Source of the DNA: an uncultured Clostridium sp.
GTDB lineage: Bacteria; Bacillota; Clostridia; Lachnospirales; Lachnospiraceae
DNA: 54,425 bases
Assembly: GCA_947178475.1 (NCBI GenBank)
Contig: CAMWYM010000006.1
Span: 1-54,425, forward strand
Direction: 5' to 3'
Shown here: piece by piece, positions 13,178-33,023 of the stretch
Numbering within the stretch: the stretch's first letter is position 1
How the letters are laid out: the number at the start of each line of letters is the position of its first letter
Translations under genes and position numbers: made by a program
The notes under the pieces: generated by a model
Told to the model about the DNA's origin: nothing
The model's input: the letters and a program-made list of their open reading frames with translations, nothing else
Database searches by the model: none

Positions 13178-14074
13178 TTAATAAATGTACCCCCACATAC
13201 TTCTGATCTGCCCGCTTATAGTATCATAGCTCCATGACCGGCTGCTTCTTATCCGGCTGAAAGGGTCATTGACGAGAAAACCATCCTGGTCATATCCATA
13301 GATAACAATAAAATGTCCACTGGAAGTAAAATCCCCCGGACCCATGGAACAGATTATCATTCCTCCGCCGTCCAGATAACCCTTCATATTCCCCTCACCT
13401 AAAGACAATTCCTCTGTCTTCACTCCGTAATAGGCTGCTGCATCCGTCATCAAGCTCCATGAGGTTCCTTCTCCATAGACATAATATCCGTTGTTCTCGC
13501 TAAACTCTGCAATGACATCAGGTGTGGCATTCTCATTTCCCGTTAGACTGAATATCACCATGGAAAGGCAGGCAGGACCACAGCCGGACAGTCCGACATT
13601 GTCATCCCCGTAAGGTACATAGCCCCATCTTGCATCCCACTGCAGAAACAACGGATACTGCTGTTCTCTTTCCCTTGCGCTGAAGCCTCCTGCCGCCACC
13701 GGCTGGGCATCTGGATAGTTTTTGACAAACTCAACTATTTCCGGATTTTTCTCCAGTGTTTCCAACATGACATCCGGATAAAGTTCCCGGTTTTCAAAAA
13801 CAGACTTCCACATATCCGTCTGTCGTATTTCCTCATGGGTCATCTGAGAAATATCACTGCTCCTGCTTTTCCCGAAAGCAGTCTTCACACGGTCTATGGA
13901 CACATCATTTCCATCCATCTCCGCTAACCATTTTATGCCTATTCCTCCCACCGACAGAAGGATAACAACCACTCCAAAATAAAAGGAAAACTGAAGAAGC
14001 TTTCTTATCCGCCGCTGCTTCGCTCTCCGTCTTCTCCTTTCCATTCTGATTCTGTTCATCTGTACATCAGTCAT
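13178..14074 (-). CDS. Membrane-anchored C39-family cysteine peptidase
   Basis: A 298-residue protein with a basic N-terminus, one membrane segment (about 27-47) and an extracellular papain-like domain of the C39_2 type. The catalytic Cys is in SGCGPAC (C165), the His in SGHFIVIYG (H254) and the third catalytic residue in VNDP (D270). Unlike C39 peptidases fused to bacteriocin exporters, it is free-standing, so cleavage of leader peptides is unlikely; a cell-wall or surface-protein substrate is more probable (inference). It is the last gene of the operon with the VanS/VanR-like pair, 104 bases after the kinase, so it is likely controlled by that system. A terminator follows. Confidence 0.88.
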   Translation of the reverse strand: MTDVQMNRIRMERRRRRAKQRRIRKLLQFSFYFGVVVILLSVGGIGIKWLAEMDGNDVSIDRVKTAFGKSRSSDISQMTHEEIRQTDMWKSVFENRELYPDVMLETLEKNPEIVEFVKNYPDAQPVAAGGFSAREREQQYPLFLQWDARWGYVPYGDDNVGLSGCGPACLSMVIFSLTGNENATPDVIAEFSENNGYYVYGEGTSWSLMTDAAAYYGVKTEELSLGEGNMKGYLDGGGMIICSMGPGDFTSSGHFIVIYGYDQDGFLVNDPFSRIRSSRSWSYDTISGQIRSMWGYIY

Positions 14075-14178: not shown

Positions 14179-15324
14179 TCATACGATTTTCTGACAATCC
14201 ACCGGAAGCTTTACAATGAATACCACACTCTCATTGTCACTTTCCGCCTTAATAGCACCTCCGTGCAGTTCCACAATCTCCTTTGAAATAGCAAGTCCCA
14301 GACCTGTTCCACCAGTGCTTGAGGAACGGGCAGAGTCCACCCGGAAAAATTGCTCAAATATACGTTCCAGCTTATCCTCTGGAATTGTTTTACCATGATT
14401 TTTAACGGAAACCTCCACGTTGTTCTCCGTCGTTTTCAGCGAAAGATAAATATCCGTATCCGGATAGCTGTAGCTCACCGCATTCCGGATAAGATTGTCA
14501 AATACCCGTTCCAGCTTATCAGGATCACAGACAAGCTCTACCCCGGTCTCGATATCCGTACGCCATTCAAGCCCCTTCTCCGTCAGTATAGGATAGAATT
14601 CACTGACAATCTGCTCTAACATCCTGCTCAGATTAACCCTCTCTGCCTCCAGTGTCAGCTTAGACAAATTGAACCGGGTAATCTCAAAAAATTCATTGAT
14701 AAGTTCTTCCAAACGCTCTGCCTTATCCAAGGCAATGCCGGTGTACTTACCTCTCAGTCCCTCCGAAATCTGAGGCTCATCCCTAAGCAGGGTAAGATAT
14801 CCAATCACCGAGGTAATAGGGGTTTTCAAGTCATGGGCAAGGTACGTAACCAAATCATTTTTTCTCTGTTCCGCCTCTCTGGCATTTCTCTCATTATTCA
14901 AAATCTCCACTCTGGTCTGATTCAATCTGTTCTCCACCTCTTTAAGCGGCTCCGGCAGTTCGATCAGACTGCTGTTTTCCCTGTAAAATTCCTCCGTCCC
15001 CCGCACCACCTCCTGAAGATAGTTAAAGGTCCTTCTCCAAAAAAAGTAAAAGATAACGGCAACACCGGATACGGCATACAAAATGAGCACAAGTGTATTG
15101 TTCGTAATATGAAACTCTGCCCAATGAACCAGATAATAAAAAAGTTCATCCCCGTACCACACTCTACCATGATAATACTCATAGAAAAAATAATACAGCA
15201 GCACTCCCAGCGCAGCATAAATTACAATGCTAAACAGAATCTGCAATCTCATACGCTGTCTCATTTTGCCCAAAGACTTCTTAGTTTTCAATGGTATACC
15301 CGACCCCCCAAACCGTTTTGACAT
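14179..15324 (-). CDS. VanS-like membrane sensor histidine kinase
   Basis: A 381-residue kinase with two membrane segments (about 28-48 and 76-96) and only about 27 residues between them outside the cell, a layout typical of VanS and other envelope-stress kinases with tiny sensor loops. The HisKA motif is YLAHDLKTPITSV (H164), the N-box LIRNAVSYSYP, and the G boxes include EQFFRVDSARSSSTGGTGLGLAISKEI. It pairs with the OmpR-type regulator directly upstream and, as annotated, overlaps its 3' end by 44 bases. A start at ATG 15264 (residue 21) would remove the overlap but neither start has a strong ribosome site. No D-Ala-D-Lac ligase genes are nearby, so resistance cannot be inferred. Confidence 0.93.
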   Translation of the reverse strand: MSKRFGGSGIPLKTKKSLGKMRQRMRLQILFSIVIYAALGVLLYYFFYEYYHGRVWYGDELFYYLVHWAEFHITNNTLVLILYAVSGVAVIFYFFWRRTFNYLQEVVRGTEEFYRENSSLIELPEPLKEVENRLNQTRVEILNNERNAREAEQRKNDLVTYLAHDLKTPITSVIGYLTLLRDEPQISEGLRGKYTGIALDKAERLEELINEFFEITRFNLSKLTLEAERVNLSRMLEQIVSEFYPILTEKGLEWRTDIETGVELVCDPDKLERVFDNLIRNAVSYSYPDTDIYLSLKTTENNVEVSVKNHGKTIPEDKLERIFEQFFRVDSARSSSTGGTGLGLAISKEIVELHGGAIKAESDNESVVFIVKLPVDCQKIV

Positions 15325-15979
15325 ATTTAGGCTTTCTTGCCGGTTCCTTCAATTTTTCCCGAAGCCTTGCAATATGTGCCATGACTGTATTGTTATTATC
15401 CAGATATTCCTCACCCCACACACCCTCAAAAAGCTCCTCTGATGACACTACACTGCCTCTGCGTTCACACAGATACCACAAAATATCAAACTCTATCGGA
15501 GTTAACGACAGCTCTTTTCCGTTTAACATGCATTTGTGGCTCTTTTTGGAAATATGTAGTCCCCGGATATCAATTTCCTCTGATTCATGATTTTCCTGCT
15601 CTGACTGATTGTAGCGGGTGTATCTGCGAAGCTGGGTCTTTACCCTCGCCATAAGCTCCAAAGGATTAAACGGCTTCGTCACATAGTCGTCTGCCCCCAG
15701 TGTTAAGCCGGTAATTTTATCTAAATCGTCTACCTTTGCTGTCAACATGATAATGGGAAACAAATACCGCTCCCTGATTTTCTGACACAGGGTAAAGCCA
15801 TCCATATCTGGAAGCATGACATCAAGAATCGCCATATCAAGCTCCTCTTTTGTAACGCATTCCAGCGCATCTGTGGCATTGTAAAACTTATACACCTGAT
15901 AACCATCGTTTTGCAGATAAACCTCTACCAGATCCGCTATTTCCTTTTCATCATCGACAATCATTATCCTTTGTCCCAT
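15281..15979 (-). CDS. VanR-like OmpR/PhoB-family response regulator
   Basis: A 232-residue two-domain regulator. The receiver has the acidic pair VDDE, phosphoacceptor D53 in ILDVMLPDMDG, the switch Thr in MLTAK and the Lys in VTKPF. The C-terminal winged helix ends in the usual YVKTVWGVGYTIEN, which should bind direct repeats. I chose ATG 15979 (MGQRIMIVDDE) because AAAGGA lies about 10 bases upstream; a longer frame starts at 16000 within the stop of the preceding REC-ComFB gene. Its probable target is the pair of 11-base TTACAT repeats at the operon promoter (16731-16752), i.e. autoregulation (inference). Confidence 0.94.
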   Translation of the reverse strand: MGQRIMIVDDEKEIADLVEVYLQNDGYQVYKFYNATDALECVTKEELDMAILDVMLPDMDGFTLCQKIRERYLFPIIMLTAKVDDLDKITGLTLGADDYVTKPFNPLELMARVKTQLRRYTRYNQSEQENHESEEIDIRGLHISKKSHKCMLNGKELSLTPIEFDILWYLCERRGSVVSSEELFEGVWGEEYLDNNNTVMAHIARLREKLKEPARKPKYVKTVWGVGYTIEN

Positions 15980-15999
15980 GACAACAGAATCCTTTCCCA

Positions 16000-16647
16000 T
16001 TATTTGTGACTCGGTCGTTCCTTTACCATCTGTGCATAATAAGTAATATCCGTCAAAAGCTTAATCCGATCACCTCTTGACGTCCTCTGGGCTGCCATTG
16101 CAATGGCAGATCCCTTCTCACTTGTTACATATTTGGGCGGTTCGTTATTCAATGTTAACGTCAGCAAATCCCGCCTGCAGATTAAGCAGGTACACATTCC
16201 CAGATTGTCAATGCACTGTTCCATTTCCTCCCGTATCAGATCCTCCATTACATTGTGAACCATTCTAGTGTTGCCGACACACAGCACATTGTCTACACGC
16301 CGCTTAACAACACTGGGATTTATCGGTTTTAACAGCACATCATCCGCACCCATGGAAATGGCGTATTCCACCTCTTCCGTCTGCTCCGAAGAGGCTAGAA
16401 CCAGTACAGGAATATTCTTATATGCCAGATTACTCTCCATGCATTCTAATATTTCTTTTCCCTTTATCTCCGGTGTCTGCAAATCGATAATGATCAAATC
16501 AATTTCGCCAGCATGCGCTTCCAAATAAGAATATCCTTTTTCTCCATCCGAAACCTTCTCACATACGTAGTCCGTCCCAAGCGAATCCACCAGTACATTA
16601 AAAACCTCATCATCATTGTCCACCAAAAGTATACTATTCTTTCTCAT
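16000..16647 (-). CDS. Response regulator with C-terminal ComFB-like domain
   Basis: A 215-residue protein. Residues 1-122 are a receiver domain with acidic pocket VDNDDE, phosphoacceptor D55 in IIIDLQTPEI and K107 in LLKP. Residues about 128-210 match the pattern of the ComFB family: NVMEDLIREEM, a Cys motif CTCLICRRD (C152, C154, C157) and LTLNNEPPKYVTSEKG. ComFB proteins have been reported as cyclic-dinucleotide receptors in cyanobacteria and Bacillus; whether this one binds such a ligand is an inference. It is the first gene of the operon and abuts the VanR-like regulator, so phosphorylation could come from the VanS-like kinase or another source. Receiver-ComFB fusions are not something I know to be characterised. 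Confidence 0.88.
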   Translation of the reverse strand: MRKNSILLVDNDDEVFNVLVDSLGTDYVCEKVSDGEKGYSYLEAHAGEIDLIIIDLQTPEIKGKEILECMESNLAYKNIPVLVLASSEQTEEVEYAISMGADDVLLKPINPSVVKRRVDNVLCVGNTRMVHNVMEDLIREEMEQCIDNLGMCTCLICRRDLLTLTLNNEPPKYVTSEKGSAIAMAAQRTSRGDRIKLLTDITYYAQMVKERPSHK

Positions 16648-16724: not shown

Positions 16725-16752
16725 ATTATACCACAATGTAACCAAAATGTAA
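16725..16752 (-). promoter_or_regulatory. Operon promoter with tandem 11-base TTACAT repeats
   Basis: On the minus strand two adjacent repeats, TTACATTTTGG (16742-16752) and TTACATTGTGG (16731-16741), sit directly before a -10 TATAAT (16725-16730). No good -35 hexamer is present; the repeats take its place. Direct repeats with an 11-base period are the standard binding arrangement for OmpR/PhoB-family activators, so this is probably where the VanR-like regulator acts. Confidence 0.72.
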
Positions 16753-16827
16753 CTAAGCAATCTCACTTTCGTATTGAGAGTCAAAAACCCCGCCGCTCGC
16801 AGGGATAAACCATAGTGATAACATATC

Positions 16828-16860
16828 AAAAATGGGAAGCCTTGATATTCAAGCTTCCCA
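16828..16860 (-). terminator. Intrinsic terminator after tRNA-Leu
   Basis: TGGGAAGC (16833-16840) pairs with GCTTCCCA (16853-16860), with an inner TTGA/TCAA stem, and on the minus strand is followed by TTTTTGA. It lies 12 bases downstream of the tRNA-Leu 3' end. Confidence 0.85.
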
Positions 16861-31587: not shown

Positions 31588-32835
31588 TCAGCATACCACC
31601 TGGTTACGTCCTGCCTTTTTGCCCTTATACAGATTATCATCTGCCGCCTTGATAACCTCCTCATATGGAACATCCTTTTCCATCTCTTTAATTCCAAAGG
31701 TCATGGTAATATGAATTGTCTGTTCCTGATAGGTAAATACCTTTTCCCGGAGATCCAAAAGCAGCTTCTCTGTCTTCTCCTTAGCCTCCTGTATCCCGAG
31801 TCTGTATACCAGCAGAAATTCCTCACCGCCCCACCTCGAGGCAAAGCCACAATCCTTCACACTTTCCTGAAGCATTTCCGAGACTCCTACTAATATATAA
31901 TCTCCACACTCATGCCCATATTGGTCATTAATGGATTTAAACCAGTCGATATCACACATAACAAAGGTAACGTCACAATCCTGCTTTATCAATGCCCGCA
32001 GATGATTGTGACAGCTGCGGCGATTATATAGGGAGGTCAACGCATCTAATTCAATAAGATTTTTTAATGCAGAACTTACCTTATCTGCGTATACTCCTAT
32101 TTCTCCCAATTCATCTGTACGGTTCACCACCCGTTCATCTATCGTTATACTTAAATCTCCATCCGATAGAACATGAAGATACTGCTTAATTAGTCCAATA
32201 TCTCCAATCATCTTTTGTGAAAACCGCTTACTGACAACCAGTGCAACCACTATGGCTACTATGGAAAACGCAAGGAAAACCACCATAATATTACCAATTT
32301 GTTGATAAACCATAGATGCTGGCTTGCCGGCAAATACCATTCCCACAATACTGTCATCATCATTTTTGAGCGGTGTATAGTATCCTATGTAGCTGGACCC
32401 ATTAATATTTAACCGATTGGAAAAATAATTCTCTCCGTTTTCCAGTACCCTTTGTTTTACCTCACTATTTGCCTTCGTCTTAATTGCCGACACACCATAT
32501 TCATTTTCTACGGTAGTCAGAATTCTCGTATCTCCCCAAAAAATAGTAGTATCAATGTTGGCATTGTTCTTAACCTGATAAAGCATTGTAGAATCCGTAA
32601 TATTAATGTCACCCTTTTTTAACATCCCATCCTCATAAGAATAATCACCTCTGACTGACAGGTCAAAACATCCCTTTAACAGATATGTAGTTGTTTCAAC
32701 CTCGTTTCGTACAATATTTGATGCAAAACCATATATTAACACTATTCCAAAGAATAGAATACCTAATCCCAGCAGCAGTATTGGAAGCAATACAATCGTC
32801 TGCATCTTCCGACTGATACTTGTCCTCTTTTTCAA
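31588..32835 (-). CDS. Membrane-bound diguanylate cyclase (GGEEF)
   Basis: Makes the second messenger c-di-GMP from two GTP. Two membrane segments (about residues 9-35 and 185-207) flank an extracellular Cache-like domain of about 150 residues (with GYYTPLKNDDDSIVGMVF). A HAMP-like segment follows, then the GGDEF domain with active site RWGGEEF and the conserved DIDWFKSINDQYGHECGD. The product-inhibition I-site (RxxD, nine residues before GGEEF) is degenerate (KDCG), so feedback inhibition is probably lost. Start TTG 32835 is preceded by AGAGGTGA; the longer frame to 32889 has no ribosome site. No phosphodiesterase is encoded in the window. Confidence 0.94.
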   Translation of the reverse strand: MKKRTSISRKMQTIVLLPILLLGLGILFFGIVLIYGFASNIVRNEVETTTYLLKGCFDLSVRGDYSYEDGMLKKGDINITDSTMLYQVKNNANIDTTIFWGDTRILTTVENEYGVSAIKTKANSEVKQRVLENGENYFSNRLNINGSSYIGYYTPLKNDDDSIVGMVFAGKPASMVYQQIGNIMVVFLAFSIVAIVVALVVSKRFSQKMIGDIGLIKQYLHVLSDGDLSITIDERVVNRTDELGEIGVYADKVSSALKNLIELDALTSLYNRRSCHNHLRALIKQDCDVTFVMCDIDWFKSINDQYGHECGDYILVGVSEMLQESVKDCGFASRWGGEEFLLVYRLGIQEAKEKTEKLLLDLREKVFTYQEQTIHITMTFGIKEMEKDVPYEEVIKAADDNLYKGKKAGRNQVVC

Positions 32836-33023
32836 AAAATCACCTCTCAAATCACATTCAAATTTACTTTCTTCGATAGAATACCACATTTTTATATAAC
32901 TTTCAAATACAACTGTATTGATTTTCCAAATCTATGTGGTTAATGCTGACTTTGCTTTTATGGACAATTTCCGTTAATCGTGTTAAACTGTCCATGATTT
33001 GATCACCACCAAGGAGGCCGACT

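Follow-up and report, generated by a model that had tools for sequence, protein, structure and literature searches.

We analyzed a 54,425-nucleotide stretch of DNA (hereafter "the window") comprising contig CAMWYM010000006.1 of an uncultured Clostridium sp. of the Lachnospiraceae and found that one of its genes joins a response regulator receiver (REC) to a ComFB domain. The REC-ComFB combination is genuine and rare, and its receiver is degenerate. Because the ComFB half has the predicted ComFB fold, the receiver has kin among c-di-GMP proteins and the genome carries cyclic-dinucleotide genes, we favor, with about even confidence, the reading that REC-ComFB is an atypical (pseudo-receiver) response regulator with a ComFB output that acts as a dimeric cyclic-dinucleotide receptor. 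An earlier note on this DNA had proposed that the protein, if its ComFB domain still binds a cyclic dinucleotide, would combine phosphorylation with second-messenger input in an operon with a VanR/VanS-like pair. The second-messenger half of that mechanism appears plausible from the structural model, the phosphorylation half looks doubtful from the catalytic residues, and the loci compared give no support to the VanRS half.

A receiver joined to a ComFB domain

Both domains were detected by Pfam in a single open reading frame (ORF): PF00072 at residues 6-118 (4.1e-16; 59.6 bits, cut-off 30.2) and PF10719 at residues 131-212 (1.4e-14; 54.3 bits, cut-off 25), the latter alignment of 82 residues spanning profile positions 1-83 of 83. 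The NCBIfam model for late competence protein ComFB (NF052654) gave 42.8 bits, below its cut-off of 120, and neither a DNA-binding nor an enzyme domain was detected by Pfam. The plus-strand frame across 16000-16647 is interrupted by stops. Genome-wide, this is the sole PF10719 match (3.12 Mb assembly, 90% complete). The fusion and the two hidden Markov model (HMM) matches that the earlier note had put forward as a check were therefore confirmed, and the residues it had named (D55, K107, C152, C154, C157 and LTLNNEPPKYV) all lie where it had placed them. Its remark that no characterized member is known agrees with our searches of the available literature, which gave no paper describing a REC-ComFB fusion.

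The receiver, which had been called normal-looking, turned out not to be so. Bourret and colleagues class a receiver without any one of five residues (DD, D, T/S and K) as a pseudo-receiver, a class making up ∼6% of bacterial receivers (PMC12632262). The window protein has a receiver by HMM without this full quintet and thus belongs with the pseudo-receivers rather than the true receivers: two of the five residues differ, with N11 at the second acidic position and A85 at the Thr/Ser position, so that a direct metal-holding residue and the Thr/Ser switch are both replaced. In the closest homologue (L033), the residue aligned with A85 is Thr, in support of this column assignment. For comparison, 70 of the 74 PF00072 matches in the window genome (four partial ones were dropped) were aligned with the receivers of the nine REC-ComFB proteins described below. 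The full quintet is kept in 63 of the 69 own-genome receivers other than the window protein, and truncated matches account for three of the six without it. Further, 60 of these 69 receivers have an aromatic residue (Y or F) three positions before the Lys. This residue is V104 in the window protein and is non-aromatic in all nine REC-ComFB proteins, including both with a complete quintet; the aromatic-switch route may therefore be absent from the whole REC-ComFB family. Elsewhere in the window, Met takes the place of the Thr (EDDMK) in another receiver (43-393), part of a hybrid-kinase-like ORF on the minus strand (13-2433).

PF10719 was found in 4 of 26 genomes of the genus, the window's included, each time as REC-ComFB (4/4), and in 71 of 396 genomes drawn from the taxonomic family; the surveys of family and order covered about 400 genomes each, drawn from larger groups. 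Among 40 long-frame loci of the family genomes, three encode REC-ComFB (L057, L063 and L075), 34 carry an N-terminal extension of a different kind, and one is short; the remaining two (L065 and L084) have no ComFB ORF in the gene list. ComFB frames of <146 aa were counted as stand-alone from their length. In genome G040 (159 aa, locus L022), the ComFB frame stands beside a ParA-like ORF, with no receiver. A contig scan with two short patterns contributed L039 and L040 and re-found three members; L063, L057 and L075 were not among its matches. Three of 392 order genomes had a full-length match (seven candidates scored per genome). In total, the REC-ComFB family has nine members, and those of their host genomes that were placed lie in the window's own taxonomic family.

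The quintet is complete in L040 and L063 and incomplete in the other seven members, which argues further against the combined phosphorylation input proposed earlier. The Asp is absent from L057 and L075 and the Lys from L039 and L075, and Pfam receiver scores, 90.8 bits in L040 and 83.6 in L063, stand at 47.9 in L057 and 16.8, under the cut-off, in L075. In all 36 pairs, the ComFB halves are more alike than the receiver halves (means 55% versus 34%). In VanR orthologues, used as a control, the quintet is intact in 5/5, and the output domain likewise exceeds the receiver in likeness in 5/5, by ∼3 to 11 points and at a much higher overall identity.

ComFB also occurs in other contexts among the relatives. 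In 36 loci, it follows a different N-terminal extension (e.g. L034:4935-5846, L035:4313-5191 and L061:4984-5775), with an NKTxHVLNLL-like start in 30, then in most a low-complexity linker; a ParA/MinD-like ORF lies within 300 nt in 34 of the 36, and flagellar-motif ORFs are present in 21 of the 36 fetched stretches. Tandem ComFB matches were seen at G056:C17:81816-82365 and G397:C13:17078-17645, and a Treponema protein (L049:6001-6747) has ComFB followed by a C-terminal extension of ∼139 aa, with no Pfam match at 0.01.

Kinship of the receiver and the ligand question

The nine REC-ComFB proteins cluster both in a ComFB tree (69 rows, after a motif filter removed 6 of 29 stand-alone ComFB loci; support 99/97) and in a receiver tree (83 rows, after removal of four further partial or short own-genome receivers and a duplicate of the window receiver; support 98/85), both built on short alignments with unsettled bootstraps. 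Because the members group in both domain trees, a single fusion event fits. Of 11 receivers from REC-HD-GYP, REC-GGDEF and REC-GGDEF-EAL proteins, 10 share a clade of the receiver tree (99/96) with the nine; the 63 other own-genome receivers all lie outside it. Similarly, in the order search, all nine REC-only matches over threshold belong to REC-HD-GYP, REC-GGDEF or REC-GGDEF-EAL proteins, with HHExxDGxGYP present in 7/7 HD proteins checked. When own-genome receivers were scored against a profile of the quintet-complete pair, REC-HD-GYP receivers took the top two places (86.3 and 71.3 bits; next, 67.7). L040 and L063 are the first to branch in the receiver tree, whereas the ComFB tree has L057 as its first branch and leaves most other members unresolved; the two trees thus point to no single order of residue losses.

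The window genome has 16 GGDEF matches and one DAC match over cut-off and hence encodes likely makers of c-di-GMP and c-di-AMP. The diguanylate cyclase that the earlier note had placed in the window is indeed there, as a GGDEF gene at 31588-32889 on the minus strand. Three PilZ matches over cut-off and three T2SSE-type ATPase matches were also found, two of the latter adjoining each other and PilB/PilT-like (named by eye). At locus L184 (G000, contig C58), which has CheB/CheR-like genes (by eye), two REC-HD-GYP genes flank a histidine kinase.

The ComFB half was modeled alone, as a single chain (a fold search with the whole protein listed receiver matches). As the structure check suggested by the earlier note had anticipated, the predicted model takes the ComFB fold and matches both 4wai (B. 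subtilis ComFB) and 8hja (c-di-GMP-bound CdgR). By sequence, CxCxxC and a C-terminal His make up a four-ligand zinc site, with metal binding predicted: H214 lies 57 residues after C157, close to the spacing of 58 in B. subtilis ComFB (C30 to C88), and the zinc ligands are invariant in 9/9 members. Nine residues (N132, V133, M134, E135, D160, N167, P171, Y173 and G179) are common with CdgR and may be merely structural.

On the favored reading, the ComFB half, although modeled as one chain, would form a ComFB-type obligate dimer and would bind either c-di-GMP or c-di-AMP. A partner protein would then meet one surface in the absence of ligand and another in its presence, by analogy with CdgR and DevH in Anabaena. 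As for the receiver, it would serve as a docking, dimer-tuning or protein-interaction module, with D55 phosphorylation weak at most. Its position before VanR-VanS-C39 would allow co-transcription, with no conserved functional link.

Several observations weigh against this reading. On the side of the receiver, one REC-HD-GYP receiver of the own genome, L124, does not join the c-di-GMP clade; the nine order receivers were picked by similarity, which favors grouping, and include a pair of near-copies (L178 and L183). With the nine-member profile, the lead of REC-HD-GYP is slim (64.4 versus 61.4 bits), L124 being only ninth. The window protein also keeps D55 and K107, so that phosphorylation at D55 is possible, and some phosphorylation may persist despite substitutions at DD, T or K (PMC12632262). 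On the side of the ligand, the Cys triad is absent from the aligned stretch of CdgR, which makes the transfer of its ligand to the window protein uncertain, and the literature searched shows no ligand binding for a ComFB of the zinc-cysteine type. A REC-ComFB-only profile reaches 8hja at just 0.014, and 8hja was not found from the window ComFB domain alone. The available portions of PMC13075795, PMC10519070 and PMC13001216 do not give the CdgR residues that contact c-di-GMP.

The gene neighborhood

Features of the REC-ComFB locus (window positions)
Feature	Position	Strand	Basis
REC-ComFB protein, 215 aa (gene including stop)	16000..16647	-	ORF; PF00072 residues 6-118, PF10719 residues 131-212; nine-member family
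Receiver half, classed as pseudo-receiver (D10 N11 D55 A85 K107)	16294..16632	-	PF00072; quintet; PMC12632262 definition
ComFB domain match with C152, C154, C157	16012..16257	-	PF10719; 9/9 invariance; model versus 4wai and 8hja
H214, probable fourth zinc ligand, just past the ComFB match	16006-16008	-	sequence only
VanR-like response regulator, full quintet, probable start 15979	15281..16000	-	NF033117, 409.2 bits (cut-off 350)
VanS-like sensor kinase	14179..15324	-	NF033091, 401.6 (cut-off 400)
C39-like peptidase (C39_2), third gene of VanR-VanS-C39 trio	13178..14074	-	Pfam
Promoter-like site, GTTACA-17-TATAAT, TG before second hexamer	16725..16753	-	weak
Terminator-like hairpin, between tRNA-Leu and REC-ComFB	16833..16860	-	7 observed versus 3.0 (standard deviation 2.2) expected

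The VanR/VanS-like pair and C39-like peptidase that had been reported downstream on the same strand were recovered by family models over cut-off, although the window VanR does not reach the narrower vanR-A, -C and -D models. As to a possible vancomycin-resistance operon, which would carry genes for resistance enzymes, the genes adjoining the pair are the C39 peptidase, an MCP and a HAD hydrolase (Pfam, adjacent genes only). The REC-ComFB and VanR ORFs overlap as TAATG. However, four of five aligned VanR orthologues start at the second Met of the window VanR (the fifth, L094, is listed with a longer frame), and the overlap may therefore not be a real coupling; AAAGGA lies ∼10 nt upstream of this Met.

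We sought relatives of VanS and C39 in the 26 genus genomes and read the regions of all eight other VanS matches. The trio is present in G021, G023, G024 and G020; G015 has it with an insert, and G002, G014 and G018 have VanR-VanS with no C39 match alongside. In G021 (L094), the C39 frame is broken into two ORFs. At none of these eight loci does REC-ComFB stand before VanR. The gene before VanR varies among them, being common to G024 and G020, and G021 has its REC-ComFB on a different contig from VanRS. Conversely, none of the eight other REC-ComFB loci has an ORF matching VanS, VanR is matched only weakly and by REC-ComFB itself, and no kinase was found by a crude H-box motif (the L039 locus ends at the contig end, 187 nt upstream of REC-ComFB). 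The neighbors there include, by eye, uvrB with an extracytoplasmic function sigma factor (the latter by Pfam), uvrA, a PLP-enzyme gene and others, with proS beside REC-ComFB in L040 and L063. Thus, the description of the gene as heading a VanRS operon holds for same-strand adjacency in this genome and not for the relatives, in none of which, among those examined, was the supposed functional link to VanRS and C39 seen. We rejected a VanRS-linked function as a conserved arrangement, and from these comparisons the placement looks like coincidence.

Upstream of REC-ComFB lies a tRNA-Leu gene. The promoter-like site, ∼80 nt upstream of the ORF, is graded as weak because shuffles give about as many such sites (11 observed versus 9.0 expected, standard deviation 3.6). 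Rfam at gathering thresholds gave only tRNA in the window, with no c-di-GMP or c-di-AMP riboswitch near REC-ComFB. A plasmid-borne origin was set aside, as plasmid records gave no match at 1e-20.

Competing explanations and known systems

The explanation closest to the earlier note is that VanS phosphorylates or acts with REC-ComFB and that phosphorylation and a cyclic dinucleotide together govern both the C39 peptidase and the VanR regulon. Adjacency, the overlapping ORFs, the retention of D55 and K107 and the tolerance of receivers to substitution speak for it. However, the catalytic residues replaced by N11 and A85, the eight VanRS loci of relatives without REC-ComFB before VanR and the eight REC-ComFB loci without VanS or an H-box kinase make it improbable. 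We give equally little credence to a decaying gene, that is, a once phospho-gated regulator under loss and with no present function in this lineage. Its patchy presence in the genus, the lost receiver residues and the receiver scores falling from L040 to L075 would fit such decay, but all nine members retain an open frame and a conserved ComFB half, zinc ligands included.

A zinc function is a more serious contender, if still an unlikely one. The ComFB half could be a dimer or interaction module stapled by zinc, or a zinc/redox sensor as proposed for B. subtilis ComFB, without cyclic-dinucleotide binding. Consistent with this, the zinc ligands are invariant across the family, CdgR, a proven receptor, is without the triad in the aligned stretch, and B. 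subtilis ComFB binds zinc by four Cys, its function being given as unknown in the available part of that report (PMC4381287). Against it stand the predicted fold, which matches CdgR, the kinship of the receiver with c-di-GMP proteins and the nine residues from N132 to G179 common with CdgR, with the caution given above.

Regarding the origin of the cyclic-dinucleotide receptor that we favor, a tentative scenario is that the receiver of a c-di-GMP-turnover enzyme was joined to ComFB and that decay of the phospho-switch in most lineages later left a protein that reads the ligand only. If so, a module that once helped to set c-di-GMP became part of a protein reading it, and the nine proteins would form a natural series from quintet-complete (L040 and L063) through half-degraded (the window protein) to aspartate-less (L057 and L075), along which the change of input could be measured protein by protein. 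A 2025 review describes the switching of bacterial pseudo-receivers as remaining a mystery (PMC12632262). The REC-ComFB family joins pseudo-receivers with ComFB receptors, and because the receiver site is complete in some of its members and incomplete in others, it becomes testable whether a receptor domain can replace phosphorylation. The role of ComFB as a cyclic-dinucleotide receptor is recently recognized, with tests in the literature found limited to cyanobacteria, and REC-ComFB could show whether zinc-type ComFB proteins bind these ligands.

Among known systems, the REC-HD-GYP, REC-GGDEF and REC-GGDEF-EAL regulators have the receivers nearest to REC-ComFB in both tree and search, but they make or break c-di-GMP, whereas the window protein is without an enzyme domain by Pfam. 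B. subtilis ComFB (4wai) is stand-alone, encoded in the comF operon and without a receiver, and its fourth zinc ligand is Cys88, compared with His214 in the window fusion. The CdgR/ComFB proteins of cyanobacteria (Synechocystis Slr1970 and Nostoc/Anabaena Alr3277) act in pili, competence and cell size; their binding of c-di-GMP/c-di-AMP has been shown, whereas that of the window protein is predicted, and, unlike the window fusion, they are presumably stand-alone. The outputs of FleQ and VpsT bind DNA. Like the window protein, these two regulators combine a pseudo-receiver with a c-di-GMP-responsive part elsewhere in the chain (PMC12632262); in the window protein, however, the output is ComFB, no DNA-binding domain is detected by Pfam and c-di-GMP binding is a prediction.
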